Shown: positions 14,794 to 39,312 of the stretch, in pieces | Layout: each line of letters begins with the position of its first letter | How positions within the stretch are numbered: the stretch's first letter is position 1 | Assembly (NCBI GenBank): GCA_000153385.1 | Contig: CH672375.1 | Location: 478,352 to 542,351 of the forward strand | Direction: 5' to 3' | Source of the DNA: Flavobacteria bacterium BBFL7 | GTDB taxonomy: Bacteria; Bacteroidota; Bacteroidia; Flavobacteriales; Flavobacteriaceae | DNA: 64,000 nt | Position numbers and translations under genes: made by a program | Notes under the pieces: generated by a model | What the model was told of the DNA's origin: nothing | The model's input: only the letters and a program-made list of their open reading frames with translations | Database searches by the model: none

Positions 14794-14800
14794 GCAAAAA

Positions 14801-14828
14801 GGTATGAGGTATTAGGAATGCGGGATTA
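14801..14828 (+). repeat. Degenerate heptamer tract A (left flank of four-helix gene 1)
   Basis: Four consecutive 7-bp units: GGTATGA, GGTATTA, GGAATGC, GGGATTA. It faces the four-helix-bundle gene and is the inverted partner of the tract at 15243-15270. Confidence 0.8.
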
Positions 14829-14844
14829 GTTTAAAAAACTAAAC

Positions 14845-15216
14845 CTACATTCTTGATTTTATTTTATTTCTTAAACTGGAAAGCATTTTAGTGATCTCCG
14901 TTAATTGATTCCTTATTTGTTCATTAGTTTCAAAGGTGATATAATCTCTACGATAAGCTTTGGTCCCAGCTGCAACACATTCGTTAGCAGAATAAATCGC
15001 ATGATTAATATGTTTTATAAATTGAGCATCGCTACCTGGGTAGCCTTCGGCTATGTTTAAACCTATGGAATCCGAAGCTCTTCTAAATTGAGAGCTTAAA
15101 GCATAAAGTTCTCTTGCTGGAAAATCTTTAGTAATCATATCTACAACCTCGGCAAAATCCATTGCTTTTTGATAAACTAATAAGTCCTCAAATTTAAAAT
15201 GATAGTTACTTTTCAT
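14845..15216 (-). CDS. Four-helix-bundle protein (S23/TIGR02436 type), copy 1
   Basis: A 123-residue all-helical protein of the family first found in 23S rRNA intervening sequences and related to the Avd protein of diversity-generating retroelements. Typical blocks are FEDLLVYQKAMDFAEVV, FPARELYALSSQFRRASDSI, LNIAEGYPGS and HINHAIYSANECVAAGTKA. It is here a stand-alone gene, with no rRNA or reverse transcriptase nearby, placed between paaI and paaJ in the same orientation. Inverted heptamer tracts enclose it (14801-14828 and 15243-15270). It is clearly diverged from copies 2 and 3. Its function is unknown; a basic groove for nucleic acid is known in relatives. Confidence 0.9.
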   Translation of the reverse strand: MKSNYHFKFEDLLVYQKAMDFAEVVDMITKDFPARELYALSSQFRRASDSIGLNIAEGYPGSDAQFIKHINHAIYSANECVAAGTKAYRRDYITFETNEQIRNQLTEITKMLSSLRNKIKSRM

Positions 15217-15242
15217 TAGTCAAAGATAACATAGCAAGAATC

Positions 15243-15270
15243 TAATACCTAATGCCACATACCACATGCC
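15243..15270 (-). repeat. Degenerate heptamer tract B (right flank of four-helix gene 1)
   Basis: Reads on the minus strand GGCATGT, GGTATGT, GGCATTA, GGTATTA: four 7-bp units matching tract A in inverted orientation. It touches the paaI stop codon at 15270. Confidence 0.8.
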
Positions 15271-15677
15271 TAATTCTCCCAGTCCTTATTAGTCCTATAC
15301 ACCACTCCTTTAAAAAGTGCCACAAGCTCATCGCCTTTTTTCACCTCAACAATGTTGAAACCTACTTTAGTTTTGGTTTTATCTAGAGTGCATTCAGCTG
15401 TGATGTAGTCGCCTTCTACCAGTGCCTCTATGTGGTTAATACTGGTTTCTATAGAAACGGCAAATTTACCGTGCGTGTTTGATGAAAAACCAAAAGCAGT
15501 ATCTGCCAGCGAGTATGTGATGCCACCATGAGCTTTTCCCATACTGTTGAGCATAACTGGTCTTATGGTCATTCCCAACTTTACAGAACCTATTTCAACC
15601 GACAGGATTTCTATACCTAACCAAGTTGAATATGGATCAAGTGAGAGCATTTTTGCTGGAATCTTTTTTCCGTCCAT
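15270..15677 (-). CDS. paaI: PaaI hot-dog fold thioesterase
   Basis: A 135-residue single hot-dog domain. The family signature is in GKAHGGITYSLADTAFGFSSNTHG, where HGG and the Asp/Ser-rich helix form the active site. PaaI hydrolyses ring-hydroxylated or otherwise blocked phenylacetyl-CoA products and returns free CoA. The gene follows the DUF1697 gene by 2 bp and sits in the run paaG-H-DUF1697-I-J, so the pathway assignment is firm. Its stop codon lies at the edge of a heptamer tract, and the last residues (YRTNKDWEN) may have been altered when the neighbouring unit arrived. Confidence 0.92.
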   Translation of the reverse strand: MDGKKIPAKMLSLDPYSTWLGIEILSVEIGSVKLGMTIRPVMLNSMGKAHGGITYSLADTAFGFSSNTHGKFAVSIETSINHIEALVEGDYITAECTLDKTKTKVGFNIVEVKKGDELVALFKGVVYRTNKDWEN

Positions 15678-15679
15678 AG

Positions 15680-16210
15680 TTATAATTCTGTCAATTTAAG
15701 TGTCGTATTATAGTTTCTCATGGTAGATCTCACACCAAGCTTCTTTTCAAACCAAGCATTAGTCAATTTAGTCTTGCCAAAACCGACACCACAGTAGAAA
15801 TACATCACATCATCTACTATTTTAAAAGTTTCCATTTCTGTGGAGAATGACATCACTTCATCAATCTTTTCTGTCACTGGAATCTTATCGAAAAAGCCAA
15901 AACTCATGAATTTAGAACTCTCAATAGTTCTCGTTTCAAAAGGGTTTACTTTTAGTATATCCTTAATCGCAGCTTGTTCACGCACAATTACAGGAACATT
16001 TAAATCAAATTCTGCTTTCAATAAATCTGCAATCATCTGCTCACAAGTAGCTATTTCTAAGTCGGCATTAAAAACAATATTACCAGACTGTATATAAGTG
16101 GTCACGTCATATAATGGAGTTGCTTCTATAGCTTCTCTTAAAAGCGCCATAGGCAACTTGTTCTTACCACTTACATTAACGCCGCGCAATAGCGCTACAT
16201 ATCTAGCCAT
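15680..16210 (-). CDS. DUF1697 family protein
   Basis: A 176-residue DUF1697 protein. The start MARYVALLRGVNVSGKNKLPMALL and the segment YIQSGNIVFN are diagnostic of the family; the end (KKLGVRSTMRNYNTTLKL) also fits. The function of the family is unknown. Its ATG overlaps the paaH stop as TAATG, and its own stop is 2 bp before paaI, so it is translated within the paa operon. That tight coupling is unusual for this family, which is normally found as single genes, and may mean it was captured by the operon. Confidence 0.88.
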   Translation of the reverse strand: MARYVALLRGVNVSGKNKLPMALLREAIEATPLYDVTTYIQSGNIVFNADLEIATCEQMIADLLKAEFDLNVPVIVREQAAIKDILKVNPFETRTIESSKFMSFGFFDKIPVTEKIDEVMSFSTEMETFKIVDDVMYFYCGVGFGKTKLTNAWFEKKLGVRSTMRNYNTTLKLTEL

Positions 16211-17388
16211 TATAATGAAAATTGAGTTCCAGCGGCTTTCATCTTACGCAATATCGGCGAGCATCTGTAGCGATCTTCTCTATATAAATCATACATCGCG
16301 TCCAGTTCATTTACACACCAATCGATTCCTTTTTCATTTGCCCAAGCGAGTAATCCTTTTGGATAGTTCACACCTTTGGTCATCGCGCTGTCTATTCCTT
16401 GCGCGGTTGCGATGTTTAAAAATAAAGCATCCGCTGCTTCATTAATTAGCATTACGAGTACACGATCTTGAATTTCTTTTATGAGATCCAGAGACTTTAC
16501 TGGTTCCGCTTTCGCGAAAGCGTGCTCACTATCCACATTTGCATAATCATAAAAACCACGTCCAGATTTACGACCTAGCCAGCCAGCTTCCATCAATCGC
16601 TTTTGAGTCAAGGATGGCTTGTAACGTGGATCAAAGTAGAAGGCAGCAAAAACTGTTTCTGTCACCACATAATTCACATCGTGACCTATATAATCCATCA
16701 ATTCAAAAGGTCCCATTTTAAAACCTAGTCCTTTTAAAGCGTAATCTATAGTGGCAAAACTCGCCATTCCTTCTTCATAAATACGCAGCGATTCACTGTA
16801 AAAAGGTCGTGCAACACGATTGACAATAAAACCTGGAGTATCCTTTGCTACGGCAACTACTTTTTTCCAATTCTCGATAGTAGCTACACAAGTATCTGTA
16901 ACATTTTGAGCAGTTTGAACGGCAGGAATAACCTCAACGAGTTTCATTAACGGCGCAGGATTAAAAAAGTGAATTCCTATACAGCGCTCTGGTTTATCTA
17001 GTGATGCTGCAATACTGGCAATGCTTAGACTAGAAGTGTTAGAAGCAATAATACAGTCGTCAGACACGTGAGATTCCAGTTCTTGAAATACTTTTTTCTT
17101 AATATCTAGATTCTCAATAATCGCCTCGATAGTAAGATCAGAATCCGCTAGATCCTTAACCGTATTTACATAAGAGATATTAGATTGAATCCGAGTTTTC
17201 TCAGCAGCGTCTATTCTACCTTTCTCGATAAGTCGGTTCATTATCTTTTCAAGAGCAGCTTGCGCTTTTTCTAACTGTGCTTGATTAACATCAAACAGTT
17301 TTACTTGACAGCCAGCAGTGGCAGCTACTTGAGCAATTCCACTACCCATTGTTCCTGCTCCTATGACGCCTACTTTATTGATTTCCAT
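16210..17388 (-). CDS. paaH: 3-hydroxyadipyl-CoA dehydrogenase (3-hydroxyacyl-CoA dehydrogenase)
   Basis: A 392-residue NAD-dependent dehydrogenase. The Rossmann motif is at the N-terminus (GVIGAGTMGSGIAQVAA), the catalytic His in CIGIHFFNPAPLMKLVEVIP, and two C-terminal helical 3HCDH domains follow (PGFIVNRVARPFYSES; GRKSGRGFYDY; then LVMLINEAADALFLN). It oxidises 3-hydroxyadipyl-CoA to 3-oxoadipyl-CoA. It is shorter than E. coli PaaH (about 475). The linker between the two C-terminal domains contains an exact copy of the 16-bp palindrome (EHAFAKAEP). The stop overlaps the DUF1697 start by 1 bp; paaG is upstream across a heptamer-repeat spacer. Confidence 0.92.
   Translation of the reverse strand: MEINKVGVIGAGTMGSGIAQVAATAGCQVKLFDVNQAQLEKAQAALEKIMNRLIEKGRIDAAEKTRIQSNISYVNTVKDLADSDLTIEAIIENLDIKKKVFQELESHVSDDCIIASNTSSLSIASIAASLDKPERCIGIHFFNPAPLMKLVEVIPAVQTAQNVTDTCVATIENWKKVVAVAKDTPGFIVNRVARPFYSESLRIYEEGMASFATIDYALKGLGFKMGPFELMDYIGHDVNYVVTETVFAAFYFDPRYKPSLTQKRLMEAGWLGRKSGRGFYDYANVDSEHAFAKAEPVKSLDLIKEIQDRVLVMLINEAADALFLNIATAQGIDSAMTKGVNYPKGLLAWANEKGIDWCVNELDAMYDLYREDRYRCSPILRKMKAAGTQFSL
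16507..16522. repeat. 16-bp palindrome, exact copy in paaH
   Basis: Exact CGCTTTCGCGAAAGCG, read as EHAFAKAEP in the inter-domain linker of PaaH. Confidence 0.9.
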
Positions 17389-17392
17389 ATTT

Positions 17393-17434
17393 CGTTATTC
17401 AGTATTCTTTAATCGTTATTCACTATTCTATTTA
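17393..17434 (+). repeat. Degenerate heptamer tract H (paaH-paaG spacer, no four-helix gene)
   Basis: Six 7-bp units: CGTTATT, CAGTATT, CTTTAAT, CGTTATT, CACTATT, CTATTTA. It fills the 39-bp spacer and runs into the paaG stop codon. No four-helix-bundle gene is attached. Confidence 0.7.
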
Positions 17435-18207
17435 CCCTTGAAATTAGGCTTACGTTTCTCCATAAAACTAGCAACACCTTCGGCATAGTCTTCTGTAGAA
17501 GCACTTTCAATTTGTAGTTTAGACTCAAGCGTTAGTTGCTCTTCTACCGTATTGTAAAACGATTGATTCAGTGCTTTTTTAGTATTGGCTAACGCTACTG
17601 TAGGTAATGCGGCTAACTTATGCGCTGTTTTCTGGGCAGTAACTAGAAATTCTGCATCAGGAACAGCTTTATAGATCATTCCCATTTGGTCAGCTTCTTG
17701 TGCTGTAATTTTATCGGCAAGCATCATGGCTGCACTTGCTTTACCAAAACCAATCAATCTAGGCAAAAAGAACGTTCCAGCACTATCTGGAATCAAACCG
17801 ATTTTAGAAAAAGCTTGGATAAAAGCAGCACTTTCTGTGGCGATTACTATATCACAACATAAGGCGATATTTGCTCCTGCACCAGCGGCAACACCATTTA
17901 CAGCAGCTACAACCGGTTTTTCAAGATTTCTGATTTTGAGAACTATCGGATTATAATGATCGTCTAGAATAGCTTTAAAACCTGGATTCAATTCTGGATC
18001 GGTAATTTCTTGAATGTCCTGACCAGCACAAAATGCTTTTCCTTCTCCTACAATCAGTACGGCTCTCACTTCATCATTTGAAGCACATTGATCGAGTGCG
18101 TCCTGCATGGCAAATGCCATCTCGCGGTTAAAGGAATTGAATACTTGTGGTCTATTTAAAGTTATGGTTGCAACGCCGTTGTCGACTTGTAAGAGTATCG
18201 TTGACAT
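17428..18207 (-). CDS. paaG: PaaG: 1,2-epoxyphenylacetyl-CoA isomerase
   Basis: A 259-residue crotonase-fold protein. The blocks GKAFCAGQDIQEI, NGVAAGAGANIALCCDIVIA, QAFSKIGLIPDSAGTFFLPR and the end REKRxPNFKGK-like MEKRKPNFKGK follow E. coli PaaG closely. Both hydratase glutamates are absent (Asn and Ala at those positions), while the Asp of LIPD, the general base of PaaG, is present; this is the pattern of the isomerase that turns ring epoxide into oxepin-CoA. The likely promoter is a TACCTTTA box at 18226-18233 on the minus strand. It is the first gene of the run G-H-DUF1697-I-(four-helix)-J. Confidence 0.92.
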   Translation of the reverse strand: MSTILLQVDNGVATITLNRPQVFNSFNREMAFAMQDALDQCASNDEVRAVLIVGEGKAFCAGQDIQEITDPELNPGFKAILDDHYNPIVLKIRNLEKPVVAAVNGVAAGAGANIALCCDIVIATESAAFIQAFSKIGLIPDSAGTFFLPRLIGFGKASAAMMLADKITAQEADQMGMIYKAVPDAEFLVTAQKTAHKLAALPTVALANTKKALNQSFYNTVEEQLTLESKLQIESASTEDYAEGVASFMEKRKPNFKGK

Positions 18208-18243
18208 ATAAAAATCTGTTTTTTGTAAAGGTATTGGGTTTTC

Positions 18244-18259
18244 CGCTTTCGCGAAAGCG
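18244..18259. repeat. 16-bp palindrome, exact copy (intergenic)
   Basis: Exact CGCTTTCGCGAAAGCG in the divergent spacer between paaG and the type IX cargo gene, about 37 bp from the paaG start. Confidence 0.9.
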
Positions 18260-18329
18260 TAAAGAACACATCTCTGAAGATTCTAAAAAAATATATTAAA
18301 TTTCTTACTTTTATAAAAATTGAGTTATC

Positions 18330-20453
18330 ATGAAATATATCTTGGGACTACTAGTGTTTTTTATATCACTACTAATGAATGCGCAGGCGGATTTAGATTT
18401 TGTCATGGATGTAACCAACGGTCCTATAGGTGGTTATGCAGATGTGACCTATACTATTACAAATCTTTCACCTACTGACACCTATTCAAATGTCTCAATA
18501 AATCATCCCGATGCTTTAATCCCAAATATAATTTTAAACCCTTCTACTATAGGACCTGGTATACAAGTAACCGCTACGGGACAAATACCTCTTTCTGGAG
18601 ATTCTTACTCGGTAGGACTTTTAATCACACAAGCAACAGCTACAGGAATATTGAATGGTTCTATGATCACAGAACTTTCAGACGGAATAGATTCTATGGG
18701 AAATCGAATCGATGATGGTCAATCTGTATATTTCCGTTATGAATCTTCAAGCTATGGAGTTATTTATTTAGATACTAATGGAAACTCGATTTATGATGAT
18801 GGTATAGACACAACAATTCCTGGAGCAGTTATCAATCTCTATGATGACCAAGGAAATACAGATAGTTTAGTGACTAATGAAACAGGTTGGTGGTATTTTG
18901 ACAATAGTTTTATAAATACAACTTTACCCGATTATTATGCTGCTATTATAGACGTTAACTCTTTTCCTAGTCCTACAAATTCGTACCATCTAGTAGATGG
19001 CCCAGCATCTCCTTTTACACCTAATGGATGGTTTGCATCCAATATTAGAATGAGTCATGGCTATGTGGATGATAATTTTGGAACTATTGAGGCGAGTAGT
19101 TTTTTAGATAGTAATGGCAATGGTTCTCGAGATAATGGTGAGGCTAATATGCCTTATACCAGTTTTGAATTTATAAAAGACAATGATCCTGCGACTAGCG
19201 AGGTCATTTTTAACGGTTTTGGCAATACGATAAGAAGAACGGACTTTAATCCTGGAGTTCAATTAAATGATATAAATGCAGCTCTCACTGCTCAGCAAGC
19301 TTTCTACAACATTACCACGGCTAATTATGACGATATTCTAACCGTTGCCAACCAGATAACCTCAACAGCTTTTGCGGTGACCGAAGTTTCCAGTAGCAAT
19401 AGAGATACCTCACTATCGTTAACGCCTATGATATGGCCTAATCCTGGATTTGACAGTACTCTTGAAGTTACCATTAATAATCTACATGCTGGAAATAGTA
19501 CCGGTACTTTACAATTCAATCACGACCCTATTGCTTCTATAATTGCAGTCTATGACCGCAATGGAATAGATATTCTGGCAAACGGAACGGCGACCGTAAC
19601 CTCAAACGGCTTTAGCACACCATATAATATTATGGCGTTTGGTCAGTACGATTTAGAGGTTGTAATGGCAACTCCTGTCACAGGCGTTCAATTAGGCGAT
19701 GTGTTTACTCATAGTGCGAGTATCAATCCTACTTCCACAGATAGTAACACTTCAAATAATAATACCACTGTAAATGTAACTGTTGTGGCATCTTACGACC
19801 CAAACGATGTAACCGAAGCTCGAGGACCTAGTATTCCTATAGATACTTTTTCTACTAACGATTATTTAGAATATACTATTAGGTTTCAAAACCTAGGAAC
19901 GGCAAGTGCTCAGTTTGTAAGAGTCTTATCTAGCTTGCACCCAAGTCTAGATGAAAGTACTTTTGAAGTCATTGCGACAAGTCATGGGTATTCTTATACT
20001 AAAAATGGTCGCCAGCTCGACTTCTTCTTTGACAGTATACAACTGCCACCAGAAGTCGTGGACGAACCAGGAAGTAATGGATTTATTAAATACAGAATCA
20101 AACCACTTCCTGGCTTTGCTGTAGGAGATGAAATTAGTGCTCGAGCTGAAATCTTTTTTGACTATAATCCAGCTGTGATAACTGAAACTTGGATCACGAC
20201 TTTTGATACGTCTGCTTCAATTGATGATATTATTGAAATAGCTGCCTATCCTATCCCACTTGAAACTAACACACTTTTTTTGAAAAATATTGATACTGGT
20301 AACGCACAACTTTATACATTAGATGGTAAAGAAGTTTGGAATGGAAATGTATTGAATGGTACTATAGAATTTAATTCAATTAAATCTGGTTTTTATATTT
20401 TAAAAATCATGTCAGACCAAAAGGTGACCACTATCAAGTTATCTAAGAATTAA
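18330..20453 (+). CDS. Secreted protein with DUF7619-like repeat domain and type IX sorting tail
   Basis: A 707-residue exported protein. Signal peptide MKYILGLLVFFISLLMNAQA, then a beta-rich conserved-repeat (DUF11-like) start, and an SdrD-B/dockerin-like segment (YLDTNGNSIYDDGIDTTIPGAVINLYDDQGN near 145). A second such segment is FLDSNGNGSRDNGEANMPY near 260. Residues about 480-625 (SYDPNDVTEARGPSIP, DYLEYTIRFQNLGTASAQFVRV) are the DUF7619 type. The last 70 residues form a type IX sorting domain (YPIPLETNTLFLKN ... GFYILKIMSDQKVTTIKLSK). It should be secreted to the surface. It interrupts the minus-strand paa cluster on the plus strand and has no evident part in it. Confidence 0.85.
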   Translation: MKYILGLLVFFISLLMNAQADLDFVMDVTNGPIGGYADVTYTITNLSPTDTYSNVSINHPDALIPNIILNPSTIGPGIQVTATGQIPLSGDSYSVGLLITQATATGILNGSMITELSDGIDSMGNRIDDGQSVYFRYESSSYGVIYLDTNGNSIYDDGIDTTIPGAVINLYDDQGNTDSLVTNETGWWYFDNSFINTTLPDYYAAIIDVNSFPSPTNSYHLVDGPASPFTPNGWFASNIRMSHGYVDDNFGTIEASSFLDSNGNGSRDNGEANMPYTSFEFIKDNDPATSEVIFNGFGNTIRRTDFNPGVQLNDINAALTAQQAFYNITTANYDDILTVANQITSTAFAVTEVSSSNRDTSLSLTPMIWPNPGFDSTLEVTINNLHAGNSTGTLQFNHDPIASIIAVYDRNGIDILANGTATVTSNGFSTPYNIMAFGQYDLEVVMATPVTGVQLGDVFTHSASINPTSTDSNTSNNNTTVNVTVVASYDPNDVTEARGPSIPIDTFSTNDYLEYTIRFQNLGTASAQFVRVLSSLHPSLDESTFEVIATSHGYSYTKNGRQLDFFFDSIQLPPEVVDEPGSNGFIKYRIKPLPGFAVGDEISARAEIFFDYNPAVITETWITTFDTSASIDDIIEIAAYPIPLETNTLFLKNIDTGNAQLYTLDGKEVWNGNVLNGTIEFNSIKSGFYILKIMSDQKVTTIKLSKN

Positions 20454-20467
20454 TATATTAAGATTTC

Positions 20468-20483
20468 CGCTTACGCGAAAGCG
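20468..20483. repeat. 16-bp palindrome, one mismatch (intergenic)
   Basis: CGCTTACGCGAAAGCG, 3 bp after the paaD stop on its downstream side and 14 bp from the convergent cargo gene stop. Confidence 0.8.
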
Positions 20484-20486
20484 TGC

Positions 20487-20990
20487 TTACTTCAAACACT
20501 TAAAGTAATCAAATGGCTCTAAGCAATCCTCACACTGAAACATCGCTTTACACGCTGTAGAACCAAACTGGCTGACCAGCTTTGTGTTTTGTGAACCGCA
20601 GTTGGTGCATTTTACTAATTTCTTATCATTGAGAAGCACATCCTTATCAGCGGTTTCTTCTAGTGGAGCGGCGATACCATATTCTTCTAGTGCCTTGCGA
20701 CCACGCTCGGTAATCCAATCAGTCGTCCATGGCGGACTCATTATCAATTGCACGTTTGTAGTATATCCATGTGCTGCAAATGCCCTTTCTAGGTCATCGC
20801 CTATAACATCCATCGCTGGACAGCCACTATAGGTAGGTGTCAATTTTATAGTAATCTCTTTTCCTTCAACTATAACTTCTCGGATTACTCCAAGATCTAC
20901 CACGTTTAGTACAGGTATCTCAGGATCTGCAACCTCTTCAAGAATAGCAAGAATCGATTCCGGTAACGAACCGAATATTTTCTCTGCCAT
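20487..20990 (-). CDS. paaD: PaaD: phenylacetyl-CoA epoxidase assembly protein
   Basis: 167 residues from the ATG at 20990 (MAEKIFGSLPESIL). The N-terminal part is a MIP18/SufT-like domain (EVADPEIPVLNVVDLGVI; LTPTYSGCPAMDVIGDDLERA). The C-terminus is a Cys4 zinc-ribbon-like part (CTNCGSQNTK ... CKAMFQCEDC). PaaD is needed for the epoxidase to mature or keep its metal centre. An upstream in-frame ATG at 21041 overlaps the end of the preceding four-helix gene by 11 bp and would add 17 residues (Ser/Asn-rich, NSGSNSSSDSSSS) encoded by the hexamer tract; the family start and length (about 165) favour 20990. Confidence 0.9.
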   Translation of the reverse strand: MAEKIFGSLPESILAILEEVADPEIPVLNVVDLGVIREVIVEGKEITIKLTPTYSGCPAMDVIGDDLERAFAAHGYTTNVQLIMSPPWTTDWITERGRKALEEYGIAAPLEETADKDVLLNDKKLVKCTNCGSQNTKLVSQFGSTACKAMFQCEDCLEPFDYFKCLK

Positions 20991-20998
20991 TCTTGAAG

Positions 20999-21034
20999 AA
21001 CTTGAATCTGAACTTGAATTTGAACCTGAATTAT
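20999..21034 (+). repeat. Degenerate hexamer tract C (left flank of four-helix gene 2)
   Basis: Six 6-bp units: AACTTG, AATCTG, AACTTG, AATTTG, AACCTG, AATTAT. In phase YTGAAY they face the gene and mirror the tract at 21392. They lie between two possible paaD starts. Confidence 0.78.
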
Positions 21035-21381
21035 TCACCATCTGAGTTCTTAATTAATGTGACTACGATTCTAATTAACTCATCATTTTCTTTTACAAGA
21101 CGTTCGCAATCACTCATGTTTATTAAATCTGCTTTTTTCTGAATGTTTAAATTTCTTAAACTCTCTCGCAATTCTTTTAATGAAATGCGCAATTTATTGA
21201 TGCGGTCTTTTTTAGTACCTGCACCTAATGCTTCTCCATAATTTAAAGCAGATGAACAAGCTGAACGTATTAGTTGCTGAGCAAGATATTGACCAGCATA
21301 AGACTTAGGCATAACAGCGTAAAGTTTAATAATTTCCGCAGCAAAATCTTCTAATCGCTCCGCAAGATCTTGATAAGCCAT
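21031..21381 (-). CDS. Four-helix-bundle protein (S23/TIGR02436 type), copy 2
   Basis: A 116-residue all-helical protein of the S23/Avd-like family. Key blocks: AERLEDFAAEIIKLYAVMP, AGQYLAQQLIRSACSSALNY, GEALGAGTKKDRINKLRISL, KELRESLRNLNI. It is a close paralogue of copy 3 (shared QQLIRS/EQLIRS, GAGT-KD-INKLRI and KE-E/I patterns) and more distant from copy 1. It is inserted between paaC and paaD inside the epoxidase operon in the same orientation. Hexamer tracts C and D enclose it in inverted orientation. Its stop overlaps the upstream paaD ATG, so it may be translationally coupled to paaD. Confidence 0.9.
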   Translation of the reverse strand: MAYQDLAERLEDFAAEIIKLYAVMPKSYAGQYLAQQLIRSACSSALNYGEALGAGTKKDRINKLRISLKELRESLRNLNIQKKADLINMSDCERLVKENDELIRIVVTLIKNSDGE

Positions 21382-21391
21382 ATTCTTTTAT

Positions 21392-21427
21392 TTCAAATTC
21401 GAGTTTAAATTCGATTTCAAGTTCAAA
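21392..21427 (-). repeat. Degenerate hexamer tract D (right flank of four-helix gene 2)
   Basis: Six 6-bp units, on the plus strand TTCAAA, TTCGAG, TTTAAA, TTCGAT, TTCAAG, TTCAAA. On the minus strand they read YTGAAY-like toward the gene, matching tract C inverted. The tract ends 4 bp before the paaC stop. Confidence 0.8.
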
Positions 21428-21430
21428 TAG

Positions 21431-22276
21431 TTACCACTTACTATCCGGATACGTTCTCTGCATATACTGCATATCGGCTAGAATATATCCCATGTGCTCG
21501 CTGTGCATTCCTTCTTTACCACCTTTTTGGAAATATTCTACTTCCGGAATTTCTAGTGCTGCTGTAGAAAATAATTCACCTACTTTATCATAGTAGTATT
21601 CTTTTAATTGCAACATATCTGGTGCTACACCAGCAGCAATCATAGCATCATCTGCTTCTGTAGTGTGAAACAACTCATCTGTATAAATCCACAGATCGTT
21701 TACAGCTTGTTGCACACGTGTTTTACTTTCTTCAGTTCCATCACCTAGACGTTTTAACCAGTCACCAGAAAAACGCTCGTGATAACTTGCTTCTTTGATT
21801 CCTTTAAAAGCCAATGCTCTTAACGTCTGATCTGCACTTTGTTGTAATGCTCCCAAAAACATTCTGTTATATACATCAAAGAAAAACTGACGTACAATTA
21901 CATAACCAAAATCAGTATTAGGCTGTTCTACCAATAACACATTCTTATACTCACGTTCTTTTCTTAAAAATGCGATGTCATCTTCAGTAGTTTTATCACC
22001 TTTCAATTGAGCGATGTATTGATAAAAACTACGCACCTGACCAAACATATCTAGTGAGATATTAGTCAATGCGATATCTGGCTCAAGATTAGGTCCGTGA
22101 CCACACAGTTCGCCTAGACGCTGTCCTAAGATTAAATAATTATCTGCTACTCCAAGTAGGTAATCTATTAGGTGTTTCTTATTTTCTGTTGATTCAAGGA
22201 ATTGTGGGTTTAATTCCTTAATCGGCACTGCAGAATTTGAAATCGCTTTTGCGCTTAAATTTGAATTGGTTTCCAT
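21431..22276 (-). CDS. paaC: PaaC: phenylacetyl-CoA epoxidase structural subunit
   Basis: A 281-residue ferritin-like protein that pairs with PaaA in the epoxidase core. Family blocks: LLGVADNYLILGQRLGELCGHGP, DIALTNISLDMFGQVRSFYQYIAQLKG, FLRKEREYKNVLLVEQPN, EASYHERFSGDWLKRLGDG and the end GGKEGMHSEHMGYILADMQYMQRTYPD. PaaC keeps the fold but not the working di-iron centre. The first 30 or so residues (METNSNLSAKAISNSAV) are an addition relative to E. coli PaaC, and their DNA contains hexamer-like units continuous with tract E, so the extension may come from the tract. The gene lies between two four-helix units. Confidence 0.93.
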   Translation of the reverse strand: METNSNLSAKAISNSAVPIKELNPQFLESTENKKHLIDYLLGVADNYLILGQRLGELCGHGPNLEPDIALTNISLDMFGQVRSFYQYIAQLKGDKTTEDDIAFLRKEREYKNVLLVEQPNTDFGYVIVRQFFFDVYNRMFLGALQQSADQTLRALAFKGIKEASYHERFSGDWLKRLGDGTEESKTRVQQAVNDLWIYTDELFHTTEADDAMIAAGVAPDMLQLKEYYYDKVGELFSTAALEIPEVEYFQKGGKEGMHSEHMGYILADMQYMQRTYPDSKW

Positions 22277-22292
22277 AATGGATATTGTGGTA

Positions 22293-22328
22293 TTAAATTT
22301 AAATCTAAACTGAAACTTAAATTTAAAA
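22293..22328 (+). repeat. Degenerate hexamer tract E (left flank of four-helix gene 3)
   Basis: Six 6-bp units: TTAAAT, TTAAAT, CTAAAC, TGAAAC, TTAAAT, TTAAAA, i.e. YTAAAY facing the gene. Its inverted partner is at 22687-22716. Confidence 0.78.
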
Positions 22329-22332
22329 GGGT

Positions 22333-22677
22333 TTATCGTTTATTTATAATAGCTACTAGAATTCTAACAATCTGCTCAGCTTCATCTTGTAGACTAGTTA
22401 AAGACTCTGCATTTCCTAAATTCGCTTTTAGTTGAATTCTCAAATTATTATTACACTCTTTGATTTCTTTTAGAGCAATTCTTAATTTATTGATTTTATC
22501 CTTTTCAGTACCAGCTCCAGCAAACTCACTAAAATTTAGAGATACAGAACCTGAAGATCTTATCAATTGTTCAGCATAATATTTAGAAGCATATGTTTTT
22601 GCTGGTTTATCAAAAACTAAAACCACATCAGCAGCAAAACTGATTAATCTTTCTTCTAAATCATAAGCCTTACTCAT
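22333..22677 (-). CDS. Four-helix-bundle protein (S23/TIGR02436 type), copy 3
   Basis: A 114-residue all-helical protein of the same family as the genes at 14845 and 21031. Blocks: LEERLISFAADVVLVFDKP, YAEQLIRSSGSVSLNF, SEFAGAGTEKDKINKLRI, ALKEIKECNNNLRIQLKANL. It is the sister of copy 2. The gene lies between paaB and paaC in operon orientation, enclosed by hexamer tracts E and F. On its upstream side there is also a 23-bp hairpin that duplicates the paaB 3' end in inverted form, which looks like an insertion scar. Confidence 0.9.
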   Translation of the reverse strand: MSKAYDLEERLISFAADVVLVFDKPAKTYASKYYAEQLIRSSGSVSLNFSEFAGAGTEKDKINKLRIALKEIKECNNNLRIQLKANLGNAESLTSLQDEAEQIVRILVAIINKR

Positions 22678-22686
22678 AGTCTATAA

Positions 22687-22716
22687 ATTAAAATTTCAAC
22701 TTAAGTTTAGATTTAA
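22687..22716 (-). repeat. Degenerate hexamer tract F (right flank of four-helix gene 3)
   Basis: On the minus strand TTAAAT, CTAAAC, TTAAGT, TGAAAT, TTTAAT: five 6-bp units of the YTAAAY type reading toward the gene, the inverted partner of tract E. Confidence 0.78.
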
Positions 22717-23032: not shown

Positions 23033-23038
23033 ATAATT

Positions 23039-23074
23039 TTAAATTAAAGTTTAAACTTATGTTTAAGTTTAAAA
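23039..23074 (+). repeat. Degenerate hexamer tract G (paaB-paaA spacer, no four-helix gene)
   Basis: Six 6-bp units: TTAAAT, TAAAGT, TTAAAC, TTATGT, TTAAGT, TTAAAA. It has the same motif as tract E, but no four-helix gene or inverted partner lies next to it. Confidence 0.72.
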
Positions 23075-25400: not shown

Positions 25401-25991
25401 ATGCATTATCCTAATATTACAGCACCAGATTCAATTCTTAAAGAAGCCGAAAAAGCGATGTCTTTTTATCCTGCTTTACAGAATACTGAAATCGAATTTA
25501 AGTTCAATGATATGGTGCGCAAAAATTTTATGCAAGCGCAACCAACTTATAAAAGTATTTTCAAATCACGCCATAATCGCAGTTACATCATTCTCATCAG
25601 CAAAGAGTTCAAAGTAGAAAATGAAATTTTTACTATTAAAGAAATCCCAAGCGATGTACTTACCGGCTGGCTAGGTCATGAGTTAGGTCATGTGATGGAT
25701 TACAGATCACGCTCTACTATAGATATGATTTTCTTTGGGTTAAAGTATTTATACTCTCATGCTCACATTCAGGAAGTAGAACGTGCTGCAGATGATTATG
25801 CGGTGCGACATGGTATGGGCGAATATATTCTTAAAACTAAAAACTTTATCCTCAATCATACCAGTCTCTCTGAGAAATACAAACAGCACATGCGTAAATT
25901 CTATCTTTCTCCAGAGGAGATTCTAGAACTAATTAATCGCTATGGGGAAACTGGAGAAAAGCCTAGTAAGGAAGAACTGGCTCCTAATTAG
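25401..25991 (+). CDS. M48-like zinc metallopeptidase domain protein
   Basis: A 196-residue soluble protein with the zinc motif HELGH (GWLGHELGHVMDYRSRS) and a downstream Glu/Asp helix EVERAADDYAVRHG that fits the third ligand of M48-type peptidases. There is no signal peptide or clear membrane segment; one mildly hydrophobic stretch (IDMIFFGLKYLYSHA) lies between the motifs. The substrate is unknown. The ATG at 25401 is preferred over a TTG 9 bp upstream. It is transcribed divergently from paaE and ends opposite the GH3 gene across an octamer repeat tract. Confidence 0.8.
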   Translation: MHYPNITAPDSILKEAEKAMSFYPALQNTEIEFKFNDMVRKNFMQAQPTYKSIFKSRHNRSYIILISKEFKVENEIFTIKEIPSDVLTGWLGHELGHVMDYRSRSTIDMIFFGLKYLYSHAHIQEVERAADDYAVRHGMGEYILKTKNFILNHTSLSEKYKQHMRKFYLSPEEILELINRYGETGEKPSKEELAPN

Positions 25992-26045
25992 TTCGTAAGT
26001 TGTTGAGTTTTTCTATGATAAAGAATTAATTGAATCGCATGTATA

Positions 26046-26087
26046 ATGTCTCACTATGACTCAATGACTAAGCGACTCACAGACTAT
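26046..26087 (+). repeat. Degenerate octamer tract (M48 / GH3 convergent spacer)
   Basis: 8-bp units ATGTCTCA, then (after CT) ATGACTCA, ATGACTAA, GCGACTCA, CAGACTAT, running into the GH3 3' end. It is the same style as the hexamer and heptamer tracts in the paa operons, with no four-helix gene nearby. Confidence 0.6.
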
Positions 26088-32640: not shown

Positions 32641-33531
32641 TTAATTTTTATCTACTTGAGGCTTTTCTTTATAAAAGACAAGTTTAACCTCTTCACCTAT
32701 CACAAGACTTGATAATAAATCGATGGTCTCTCCTTTTCCATCAGATAATTTAATTTTTGCAGTATTAGGAGCTTCTTGCCCTTCATTTAATGCTGTGACA
32801 GTGATTGTGTTGACTTCTTGTGTAAGTTGTAGTTCTATTTCTTTTTGCTTTTTCACAGTGCTATATGATGATAAAACATCTTTCCCGTTTAAAGTCACTT
32901 TTATAATATCACCATCTACAGTTCCAGGATCCCAAATCATCAATTTTAAATAATCCTGATTCCATATAATATTTACCTTTTCGCCACCACTCAACCTGTT
33001 ATCTTCAAAACGACTCATGAACTTATTCATGTCTATTTTTTGCTTGGTACTATCTGCAATTTTATTAGACTTTGCGACCAATCTCTCAAATCGCTCTGTT
33101 CGCTTTTCAATTTTATCAGCAGCGTTAAGACTTAGTTCACCATTAATGCAACCTGTTAAGTCGTCATAATAGCTTTTAAAAGTTCCTTCTACCGCAGCCT
33201 TACCGTTAAGTTTTCTAGTTTTACCAGTAAAGTACACGTAACAAAAATCAAGTTCCGTAATATCAGACTTGGTATAAATAGTAGAAACTTCTCTGAATTC
33301 TATAGTATTCTTGCGATCATTAAATCGCCCAACAATAGAAGATTTAGTCTCGTGATCTCCATTCATATCTGTATAAGAATATCCTTTAATAAGACCTTCT
33401 TTCTCTTTAAAACTAACCTTATAAGAGATGAAGGTACTATCGGGTAATTTCAAAAAACCTAGATATTCATGCTCCTGCGCGTTTGAAAATATAGAAAAGA
33501 AGATTACTATAAATAAAAGGTGCTTATTCAT
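32641..33531 (-). CDS. Hypothetical secreted protein
   Basis: A 296-residue protein of unknown function with a clear type I signal peptide (MNKHLLFIVIFFSIFSNAQ). The N-terminal half is beta-rich (YLGFLKLPDSTFISYKVSFKE; GYSYTDMNGDHETKSSIVG) and describes a lipocalin- or barrel-like pattern. The C-terminal half has DPGTVDGDIIKVTLNGKDV and NTITVTALNEGQEAPNTAKI, blocks that I recall from secreted Bacteroidota proteins without assigned role. It lies between the barrel pseudogene and the divergent TM2 gene and has no operon partner. Confidence 0.65.
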   Translation of the reverse strand: MNKHLLFIVIFFSIFSNAQEHEYLGFLKLPDSTFISYKVSFKEKEGLIKGYSYTDMNGDHETKSSIVGRFNDRKNTIEFREVSTIYTKSDITELDFCYVYFTGKTRKLNGKAAVEGTFKSYYDDLTGCINGELSLNAADKIEKRTERFERLVAKSNKIADSTKQKIDMNKFMSRFEDNRLSGGEKVNIIWNQDYLKLMIWDPGTVDGDIIKVTLNGKDVLSSYSTVKKQKEIELQLTQEVNTITVTALNEGQEAPNTAKIKLSDGKGETIDLLSSLVIGEEVKLVFYKEKPQVDKN

Positions 33532-39139: not shown

Positions 39140-39312
39140 AAAAAAACCTGCACAAGTTTGGGTTTTGAATGAACTCCTTAAATAAAGTTTAAGGTTAACT
39201 GATTGATCAAGGATCCGGCTCCTAGGTCCGGCTTGCTTTTACAACCACGACTCACCTTTTTTAAAGAATTATGTGTTGAGTTCACCAAAAAATGAAACAA
39301 GTGCAGGTAGTA
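39140..39312 (-). ncRNA. ssrS: 6S RNA candidate (6S-Flavo type)
   Basis: About 160 nt on the minus strand, without a reading frame, that folds into one long rod. The closing stem CCTGCAC (39307-39301) pairs with GTGCAGG (39153-39147) and continues after two mismatches. An inner stem pairs TGAACTC with GAGTTCA (39170-39176 with 39278-39284). The apical stem is CAAG-CCGG/CCGG-CTTG (39208-39235), and large internal single-stranded parts lie between. Seven U follow the closing stem as terminator. This is the shape of 6S RNA, which binds RNA polymerase; the 6S-Flavo class is described in this phylum. Its position directly after zapA matches the E. coli zapA-ssrS order. Confidence 0.78.

Follow-up and report, generated by a model that had tools for sequence, protein, structure and literature searches.

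Three genes for four-helix-bundle (FHB) proteins sit in junctions of the paa operon in a 64,000-nucleotide stretch of DNA from Flavobacteria bacterium BBFL7 (contig CH672375.1, positions 478,352 to 542,351 of the forward strand; hereafter the window), each between two tracts of short repeats that read toward the gene, which raises the question of what kind of unit such a gene and its repeats form and how it came to lie in an operon. Proteins commonly annotated as 'four helix bundle protein' have, to our knowledge, no known role, and we know of no agreed origin for the heptamer arrays of cyanobacteria and Bacteroidota. The data presented here tie the FHB protein both to heptamer arrays and to the intervening sequences of rRNA genes. 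FHB1 to FHB3 denote the proteins of window units 1 to 3, G000 is the genome of the window, and other G and L numbers are our handles for genomes and loci. The names of the paa genes and of HAD, ECH, DUF1697 and GH3 are presumed from general knowledge, independently of a family library.

FHB genes of the paa operon lie between inverted arrays

All three window proteins scored above the curated cut-offs of the TIGR02436 and PF05635 profiles, and two PDB entries of five chains each matched FHB1: 2rld, which also matched FHB2, and 2gsc. Terminal inverted repeats around the reading frame exceeded the 95% level of control genes (match score 11.0) in all three units, with scores of 11.5 (unit 1, barely), 15.0 (unit 2) and 18.0 (unit 3), which, together with the profile matches, bears out the preliminary description of three family members between inverted short-repeat tracts. 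Taken singly, four of the six tracts showed within-tract repeats at p < 0.05 against 1000 Markov shuffles, and two were not significant alone. A blind scan of the window for periods of 6–8 found six arrays, compared with a mean of 0.4 in 10 shuffled windows, and five of the six sit in the paa operon. The sixth, at 32825-32852, is weak (period 6, score 12) and lies outside it.

The FHB gene is the sole gene between the arrays of each window unit; neither a transposase, whose absence had been claimed before, nor a recombinase was found there, and Pfam and NCBIfam searches with the three proteins returned four-helix-bundle or hypothetical families only, with no site-specific endonuclease. No rRNA was detected in the window by Rfam at gathering scores; the units sit between paa genes, not in a 23S gene, and the junctions first assigned to them agree with tblastn searches of the window proteins against relatives. 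Three sites with arrays and no gene had been overlooked and are included in Table 1.

Table 1. FHB units and gene-less arrays of the window
Feature	Position	Strand	Evidence
FHB gene of unit 1, paaI-paaJ junction	14845..15216	-	PF05635 E 4.9e-28; TIGR02436 99.3 bits
Unit 1, 5' heptamer array, inward-reading	15217..15270 (best array 15242-15270)	-	period 7, p 0.017
Unit 1, 3' inverted heptamer array	14800..14826	-	period 7, p 0.047
FHB gene of unit 2, paaC-paaD junction	21031..21381	-	PF05635 E 3.1e-14; TIGR02436 82.3 bits
Unit 2, 5' hexamer array	21392..21426	-	period 6; p 0.196 alone
Unit 2, 3' inverted hexamer array	20998..21030	-	period 6, p 0.008
FHB gene of unit 3, paaB-paaC junction	22333..22677	-	PF05635 E 7.5e-14; TIGR02436 68.9 bits
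Unit 3, 5' hexamer array	22685..22715	-	period 6; p 0.193 alone
Unit 3, 3' inverted hexamer array	22293..22327	-	period 6, p 0.006
Array without gene, ECH-HAD junction (several relatives have an FHB gene there)	17391..17428	-	blind scan
Array without gene, paaA-paaB junction (likewise in G005 and G009)	23034..23072	-	blind scan
Decayed gene-less inverted array pair between two convergent genes	~25986..26083	-	by eye, outside the blind-scan matches

The architecture recurs across phyla

TIGR02436 matches were present in 21 of 23 Nonlabens genomes, the remaining two having no family member, and in at least 45 of 61 Bacteroidota genomes, the window's own genome being counted in both sets. The Bacteroidota survey sample comprised 30 loci and 40 further places among the matches listed, to which 14 cyanobacterial plasmid loci, one locus from Azospirillum (15 of 34 matching plasmid records used) and loci from Chloroflexota were added. 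Removal of 40 identical, 8 near-edge and 15 long or partial frames from 268 raw FHB frames left 205 units, and the 204 other than the Azospirillum unit were compared with 312 control genes whose flanks lie at least 150 bp from any FHB gene (240 from Nonlabens, 31 from other named flavobacteria, 26 from further Bacteroidota, 9 from Chloroflexota, 4 cyanobacterial and 2 from Azospirillum). Start codons were set by rule and can fall within an array, as in L145. Some FHB frames are broken by internal stops, for example in G009, G010 and G016.

The preliminary description had proposed setting the flanks of such genes against expectation, and most exceed it: in 142 of 204 units the match of the left flank to the reverse-complemented right flank exceeded the 95% level of the controls, compared with 17 of 204 when partners were swapped within a group. 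By group, the inverted match was found in 63 of 84 units from Nonlabens, 11 of 20 from other named flavobacteria, 43 of 66 from further Bacteroidota, 9 of 14 from cyanobacteria and 16 of 20 from Chloroflexota, with 5, 6, 4, 1 and 1 swapped-partner passes, respectively. Since the controls are mostly from Nonlabens (240/312), the swapped-partner control weighs most for the small groups; its high value in the named flavobacteria (6/20) arises because most units there are orthologues sharing one motif. The units are related to one another, and the counts are therefore not independent events. The area under the curve (AUC) was 0.84–0.93 across the five groups for inverted matches and 0.31–0.55, without general excess, for direct ones. 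The observation of inverted arrays beside FHB genes is thus confirmed and general.

Arrays (lag score of at least 10) were found in 271 of 410 flanks, compared with 17 of 410 after shuffling and 45 of 624 flanks of control genes, and had periods of 7 (175 arrays), 8 (51) or 6 (45); the median copy number was 4.8 for left and 5.2 for right arrays. In every group and on both sides, the strand that reads inward is poor in C; among 141 matched arms the left arm was G-skewed in 122 and C-skewed in 12, against 19 and 11 of 40 control arms. One unit (L133) has no arrays and is oriented opposite to both of its neighbours. Units were also found in the cas operons of cyanobacterial plasmids, arranged as cas6-FHB-cas4 (L132 and L138) or cas10-FHB-cmr3 (L134), with arrays that are inverted in L134 and L138 and direct in L132.

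A role of the arrays as stop adaptors in any frame was considered and rejected as a general rule: left arrays carried a stop in a mean of 1.99 frames, compared with 1.70 after shuffling, and in all three frames in 64 of 135 cases. G003 carries the paaB-FHB-paaC stretch a second time, in partly broken copies on a small contig (C2; L056-L058).

Gene and array motif are inherited together

The array motif is tied to the protein more than to the site. For the 66 units whose two neighbours are known, motif similarity rose with protein identity between units at different junctions (rho 0.40, 1719 pairs) and between units at the same junction (rho 0.74, 426 pairs), and in neither case did any of 300 permutations reach as high a value. 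At a single junction, pairs with 45–60% protein identity had a median motif similarity of only 0.17 (172 pairs), and at paaC-paaD hexamers occur in one protein clade and heptamers in another, the period going with the protein. The rise between junctions and the low value at 45–60% identity leave little support for the original suggestion that the tracts were copied from the target spacer. At 70–80% protein identity, motif similarity was 0.71 at the same junction (57 pairs) and 0.49 at different junctions (42 pairs); at equal identity, same-junction pairs are more alike, so that place may add something.

Units follow the direction of the operon and leave reading frames intact

Neighbouring genes that match paa proteins lay on the strand of the unit in 155 cases and on the opposite strand in none. 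Both neighbours were co-directional with the unit in 112 of 128 units with arrays (all groups), compared with 80 of 127 control triples; this count leaves out 40 of the 205 units, which lack two neighbours within 300 bp, and takes neighbours from greedy open reading frame calls. The junction before paaI illustrates how units are accommodated. Where the HAD-paaI site is empty (G001, G006, G008 and G014), HAD and paaI overlap by four bases. The last HAD codons lie in array sequence in G004, G005 and G009 (where the FHB gene is broken) and partly in G010, and not in G017; in G003 array sequence makes up the last codons of DUF1697. At the other end, paaI begins with array-like codons in G003, G004, G005, G009 and G010. 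Reading frames are kept in all cases of array-written ends and starts at this HAD/DUF1697-paaI junction.

Unit types are exchanged between ordinary flanking genes

At the paaB-paaC junction, one FHB3 type occurs in G000, G016, G019 and G003 and another in G005 and G022. In all eight cross-type pairs the flanking genes are ordinary, paaB being 91–98% and paaC 84–89% identical, unlike FHB3, which is 63–65% identical, a pattern that homing and plain recombination would share; in the seven within-type pairs FHB3 is 81–99% identical, with paaB and paaC similar to those of the cross pairs. These types conflict with the host tree, in which G022 groups with G016 and G019. The tree also joins G001 with G008, and in these sisters paaB is 98% and FHB3 59% identical, the drop coming exactly at the paaB stop codon; identity is back for about 49 nt from about paaC codon 4–5 and then stands at 73–80%. 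In G004, G005 and G016 a new unit was seen by eye to be placed after the left array of an older type. Together with the motif following the protein across junctions and the lack of the family in two of the 23 Nonlabens genomes, the conflict with the host tree upholds the claim that a gene and its inverted arrays act as one unit. Of the preliminary interpretation as a whole, this part stands and the copying from the spacer is poorly supported. As a separate observation, the paaE-paaA junction (L072) contains repeat units around CGCATGCGATGCGTC, in many copies in G016 and in few in relatives.

Arrays without a gene

In 18 paa stretches with FHB genes we counted 104 arrays, 87 of them within 150 bp of an FHB gene, and no array in paa stretches without an FHB gene (G015, G018 and G021; 48 kb), of which the G015 stretch (L071) ends about 1.5 kb short of an FHB gene. 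Arrays were few in 20 chosen stretches of 20 kb: 4 per 200 kb in two FHB-free genomes, compared with 6 per 200 kb in two FHB-rich ones after a run of N (L228 7501-12500, G017) was dropped. None of the former and four of the latter scored 15 or more, which are small numbers. At the site of the decayed pair in the window, behind a GH3-like gene, G003, G004 and G005 carry clear period-8 versions of a gene-less array pair; by eye, the motifs are like those of the full unit that each of these genomes has before paaI. The G004 array behind this gene (L062 843-1030) runs to about 23 copies of the octamer AACTCACG, and the versions in G003 and G005 are short.

Relation to rRNA intervening sequences and other known systems

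One unit lies inside an rRNA gene. On the Azospirillum lipoferum plasmid AZO_p2 (L145), an FHB frame is embedded in a 23S rRNA gene, the RF02541 match spanning the locus, at a site that we take from its flanks to be helix 45. Facing heptamer arrays stand at both ends of this insert, with a predicted duplex energy of -56.0. A blastn search with the Azospirillum flanks against L001-L208 returned no further 23S-embedded FHB unit, its matches (L145 and L186) being the same record. The units described here resemble 23S intervening sequences (S23p/23S_rRNA_IVP) in having the same protein family and an open reading frame between terminal inverted repeats within a host transcript, and the A. lipoferum insert ends in the same kind of heptamer arrays. 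They differ in lying between protein genes of operons, several per operon, in having arrays of 6–8 nt repeats, and in giving no indication that an RNA stem is under selection.

Heptamer arrays are known from cyanobacteria as short tandemly repeated repetitive (STRR) heptanucleotide repeats, and the cyanobacterial FHB units carry such arrays. TAACTGA heptamer repeats occur in intergenic DNA of Cyanobacteria and Bacteroidota, in nearly all cases as direct sets, not as paired inverted ends, and the terms S23 and 'four helix' are absent from the accessible part of that paper (PMC4679880).

The family as such is already in print, as are its occurrence in rRNA inserts and in cas loci and its resemblance to Avd. 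In CPR bacteria, 23S_rRNA_IVP genes are reported from several sites of insertion within 16S and 23S genes; these share the protein family and the variety of sites with our units, differ in being confined to rRNA, and are described without 'tandem repeat' or 'inverted repeat' in the accessible text (PMC11270868). In cas loci, 23S_rRNA_IVP genes are listed among functions that go with CRISPR-Cas, as far as the accessible text goes (PMC3936711), a description that the cyanobacterial units L132, L134 and L138 fit. The flanking arrays suggest instead that these are inserts that landed in operons, and FHB genes in cas loci or other operons may accordingly be inserts that should not be read as parts of the system. 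Searches of the open-licence literature, whose coverage leaves out most subscription journals, turned up no report that links FHB genes with inverted arrays of short repeats in protein operons.

A possible insertion cassette and its alternatives

Our preferred reading, for which we see an even chance, is that of an insertion cassette akin to the intervening sequences of rRNA genes, with its own protein recognising the arrays, and exchanged mainly at the same site. Such a cassette would consist of a single FHB gene flanked by two inverted arrays, each of about five repeats of 6–8 nt, G-rich and C-poor on the inward-reading strand. The FHB protein would recognise its own arrays, perhaps as a ring of five, the form in which relatives crystallise. 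Recombination or homing into the corresponding site would account for most swaps of cassettes, a jump to a neighbouring junction within the operon would be rare, and replication slippage may maintain the variability of the arrays. Stop or start codons within the arrays would make landing between two genes harmless. The cassette would then be the operon counterpart of the 23S intervening sequences, which share this array architecture in the single case that we observed. A wider version, in which FHB cassettes form a phylum-spanning mobile element whose ends are inverted arrays of short degenerate repeats, in place of fixed inverted repeats, read by a five-subunit FHB ring, and of which rRNA intervening sequences, the FHB genes found in cas operons, array pairs that lack a gene and some of the cyanobacterial heptamer repeats would all be forms or relics, is in our view doubtful. 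That the cassette is self-spreading is unproven.

A number of results weigh against the insertion cassette. No insertion between strains was caught and no recombinase was found, and by eye no target duplication was noticed between empty and filled HAD-paaI alleles, which differ by rewritten gene ends. The whole paaC gene is 81% identical in G001/G008 and 84% in the similar pair G019/G022 despite a paaB identity of 98%; paaC itself has diverged in these pairs, so more than the cassette was exchanged there, and plain homologous recombination could explain the exchanges and would look alike. A minority of units has direct arrays, as 26 of 204 passed the direct 95% level (10, 2, 11, 1 and 2 by group, in the order given above), and L132 has strong, long direct heptamer arrays on both sides. 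The order of repeats agrees weakly between the two arrays (11 of 92 units at p<=0.05; mean gain 1.13, p 0.0018). Only one 23S case was seen among the units examined, and the protein of the Coxiella 23S insert is probably not made in vivo, according to the accessible text of PMC4990558.

Junction fidelity points the same way. On a 100-row FHB protein tree, built on few columns, with 32 open forks and a long-branch warning, there were 15 changes of junction label, compared with 69.5 after shuffling. One clade of 44 rows is found exclusively at paaB-paaC, paaC-paaD, ECH-HAD or beside HAD, and in a clade of 31 rows related groups stand at HAD-paaI in other genera and at paaI-paaJ in Nonlabens. Protein types thus keep to their junction; hops are rare and seem to lead mainly to a neighbouring junction within that operon. 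The protein is under strong purifying selection, as would be expected of a host gene (median dN/dS 0.075, range 0.03-0.34, 42 FHB pairs), and since most types stay at one junction under such selection, frequent transposition is unlikely. Vertical descent at fixed junctions had been named at the outset as an outcome that would speak against mobility. The picture is split: most types do stay put and the protein is conserved by selection, yet types differ between relatives.

The arrays might be kept for pairing in the transcript, in a hairpin that encloses the FHB gene and is cut out by RNase III in the manner of a 23S intervening sequence; such excision is published for the Coxiella insert, as far as the accessible text shows (PMC4990558), one unit here lies inside 23S rRNA, and in each of the five groups predicted left-right RNA duplexes were stronger than those of swapped partners. 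The wobble test nevertheless does not support selection for an RNA stem: mismatches of the G-U type were not favoured over the A-C type (294 against 345 in 142 units), the relation being reversed in Nonlabens (113 against 166), and the weak agreement in repeat order between the arms and the direct arrays of some units also speak against an RNA stem, which we regard as unlikely. Next in rank, and likewise unlikely, comes the view that resident FHB proteins are host regulators that control the operon by binding the arrays in mRNA or DNA, with no mobility. Protein clades locked to junctions, purifying selection, the motif that follows the protein and the direction of the operon would all be expected of such a regulator. 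The lack of the family in two Nonlabens genomes, the internal stops noted above, type differences at one junction that contradict the host tree, and the recurrence of the architecture in Chloroflexota, cyanobacterial cas operons and an rRNA gene would not.

The copying of arrays from the sequence of the insertion site, or their adaptation to it, as first proposed, has in its favour that arrays extend into the last HAD or DUF1697 codons and the first paaI codons of several species, that the motif behind the GH3-like gene resembles the end of that gene (AGTCTT being present in the array-free G009 allele too), and that same-junction pairs share more motif at equal protein identity. Against it, the motif follows the protein between different junctions, and HAD and DUF1697, which are different genes, receive the same array-coded end; we consider it improbable. 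That the units move by means of a reverse transcriptase supplied in trans, by analogy with the help that Avd gives to diversity-generating retroelements, is suggested by the resemblance of PF05635 to Avd, as described in the accessible text of PMC10053308, and by matches to the reverse transcriptase profile PF00078 in 5 of 14 genomes searched (of 23), which include the window's own, with one match on another contig, and G010 and G017, the genomes richest in FHB matches (15 and 12). PF00078 is, however, absent from the other nine genomes, seven of which do have FHB genes (as many as 10, in G009), so that we judge this route very improbable; the lack of a match in these nine genomes is also a difference from Avd. 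That the arrays are ordinary slippage-prone spacers associated with FHB genes by accident would fit the two window tracts that lack significance alone and the sixth array outside the operon, and is hardly credible given the counts of inverted matches and arrays relative to controls (142/204 and 271/410), the clustering of arrays near FHB genes and the link between motif and protein.

Other features of the window

A palindrome identical or close to GCTTTCGCGAAAGCG occurs in the window at 18241-18260 and 20465-20484 and at many junctions of relatives. It is a separate dispersed repeat of the genus, present between and inside genes and beside FHB units. A 6S-Flavo RNA (RF01685) was found at 39171-39281 on the minus strand, its 94.6 bits lying above the gathering score of the family.

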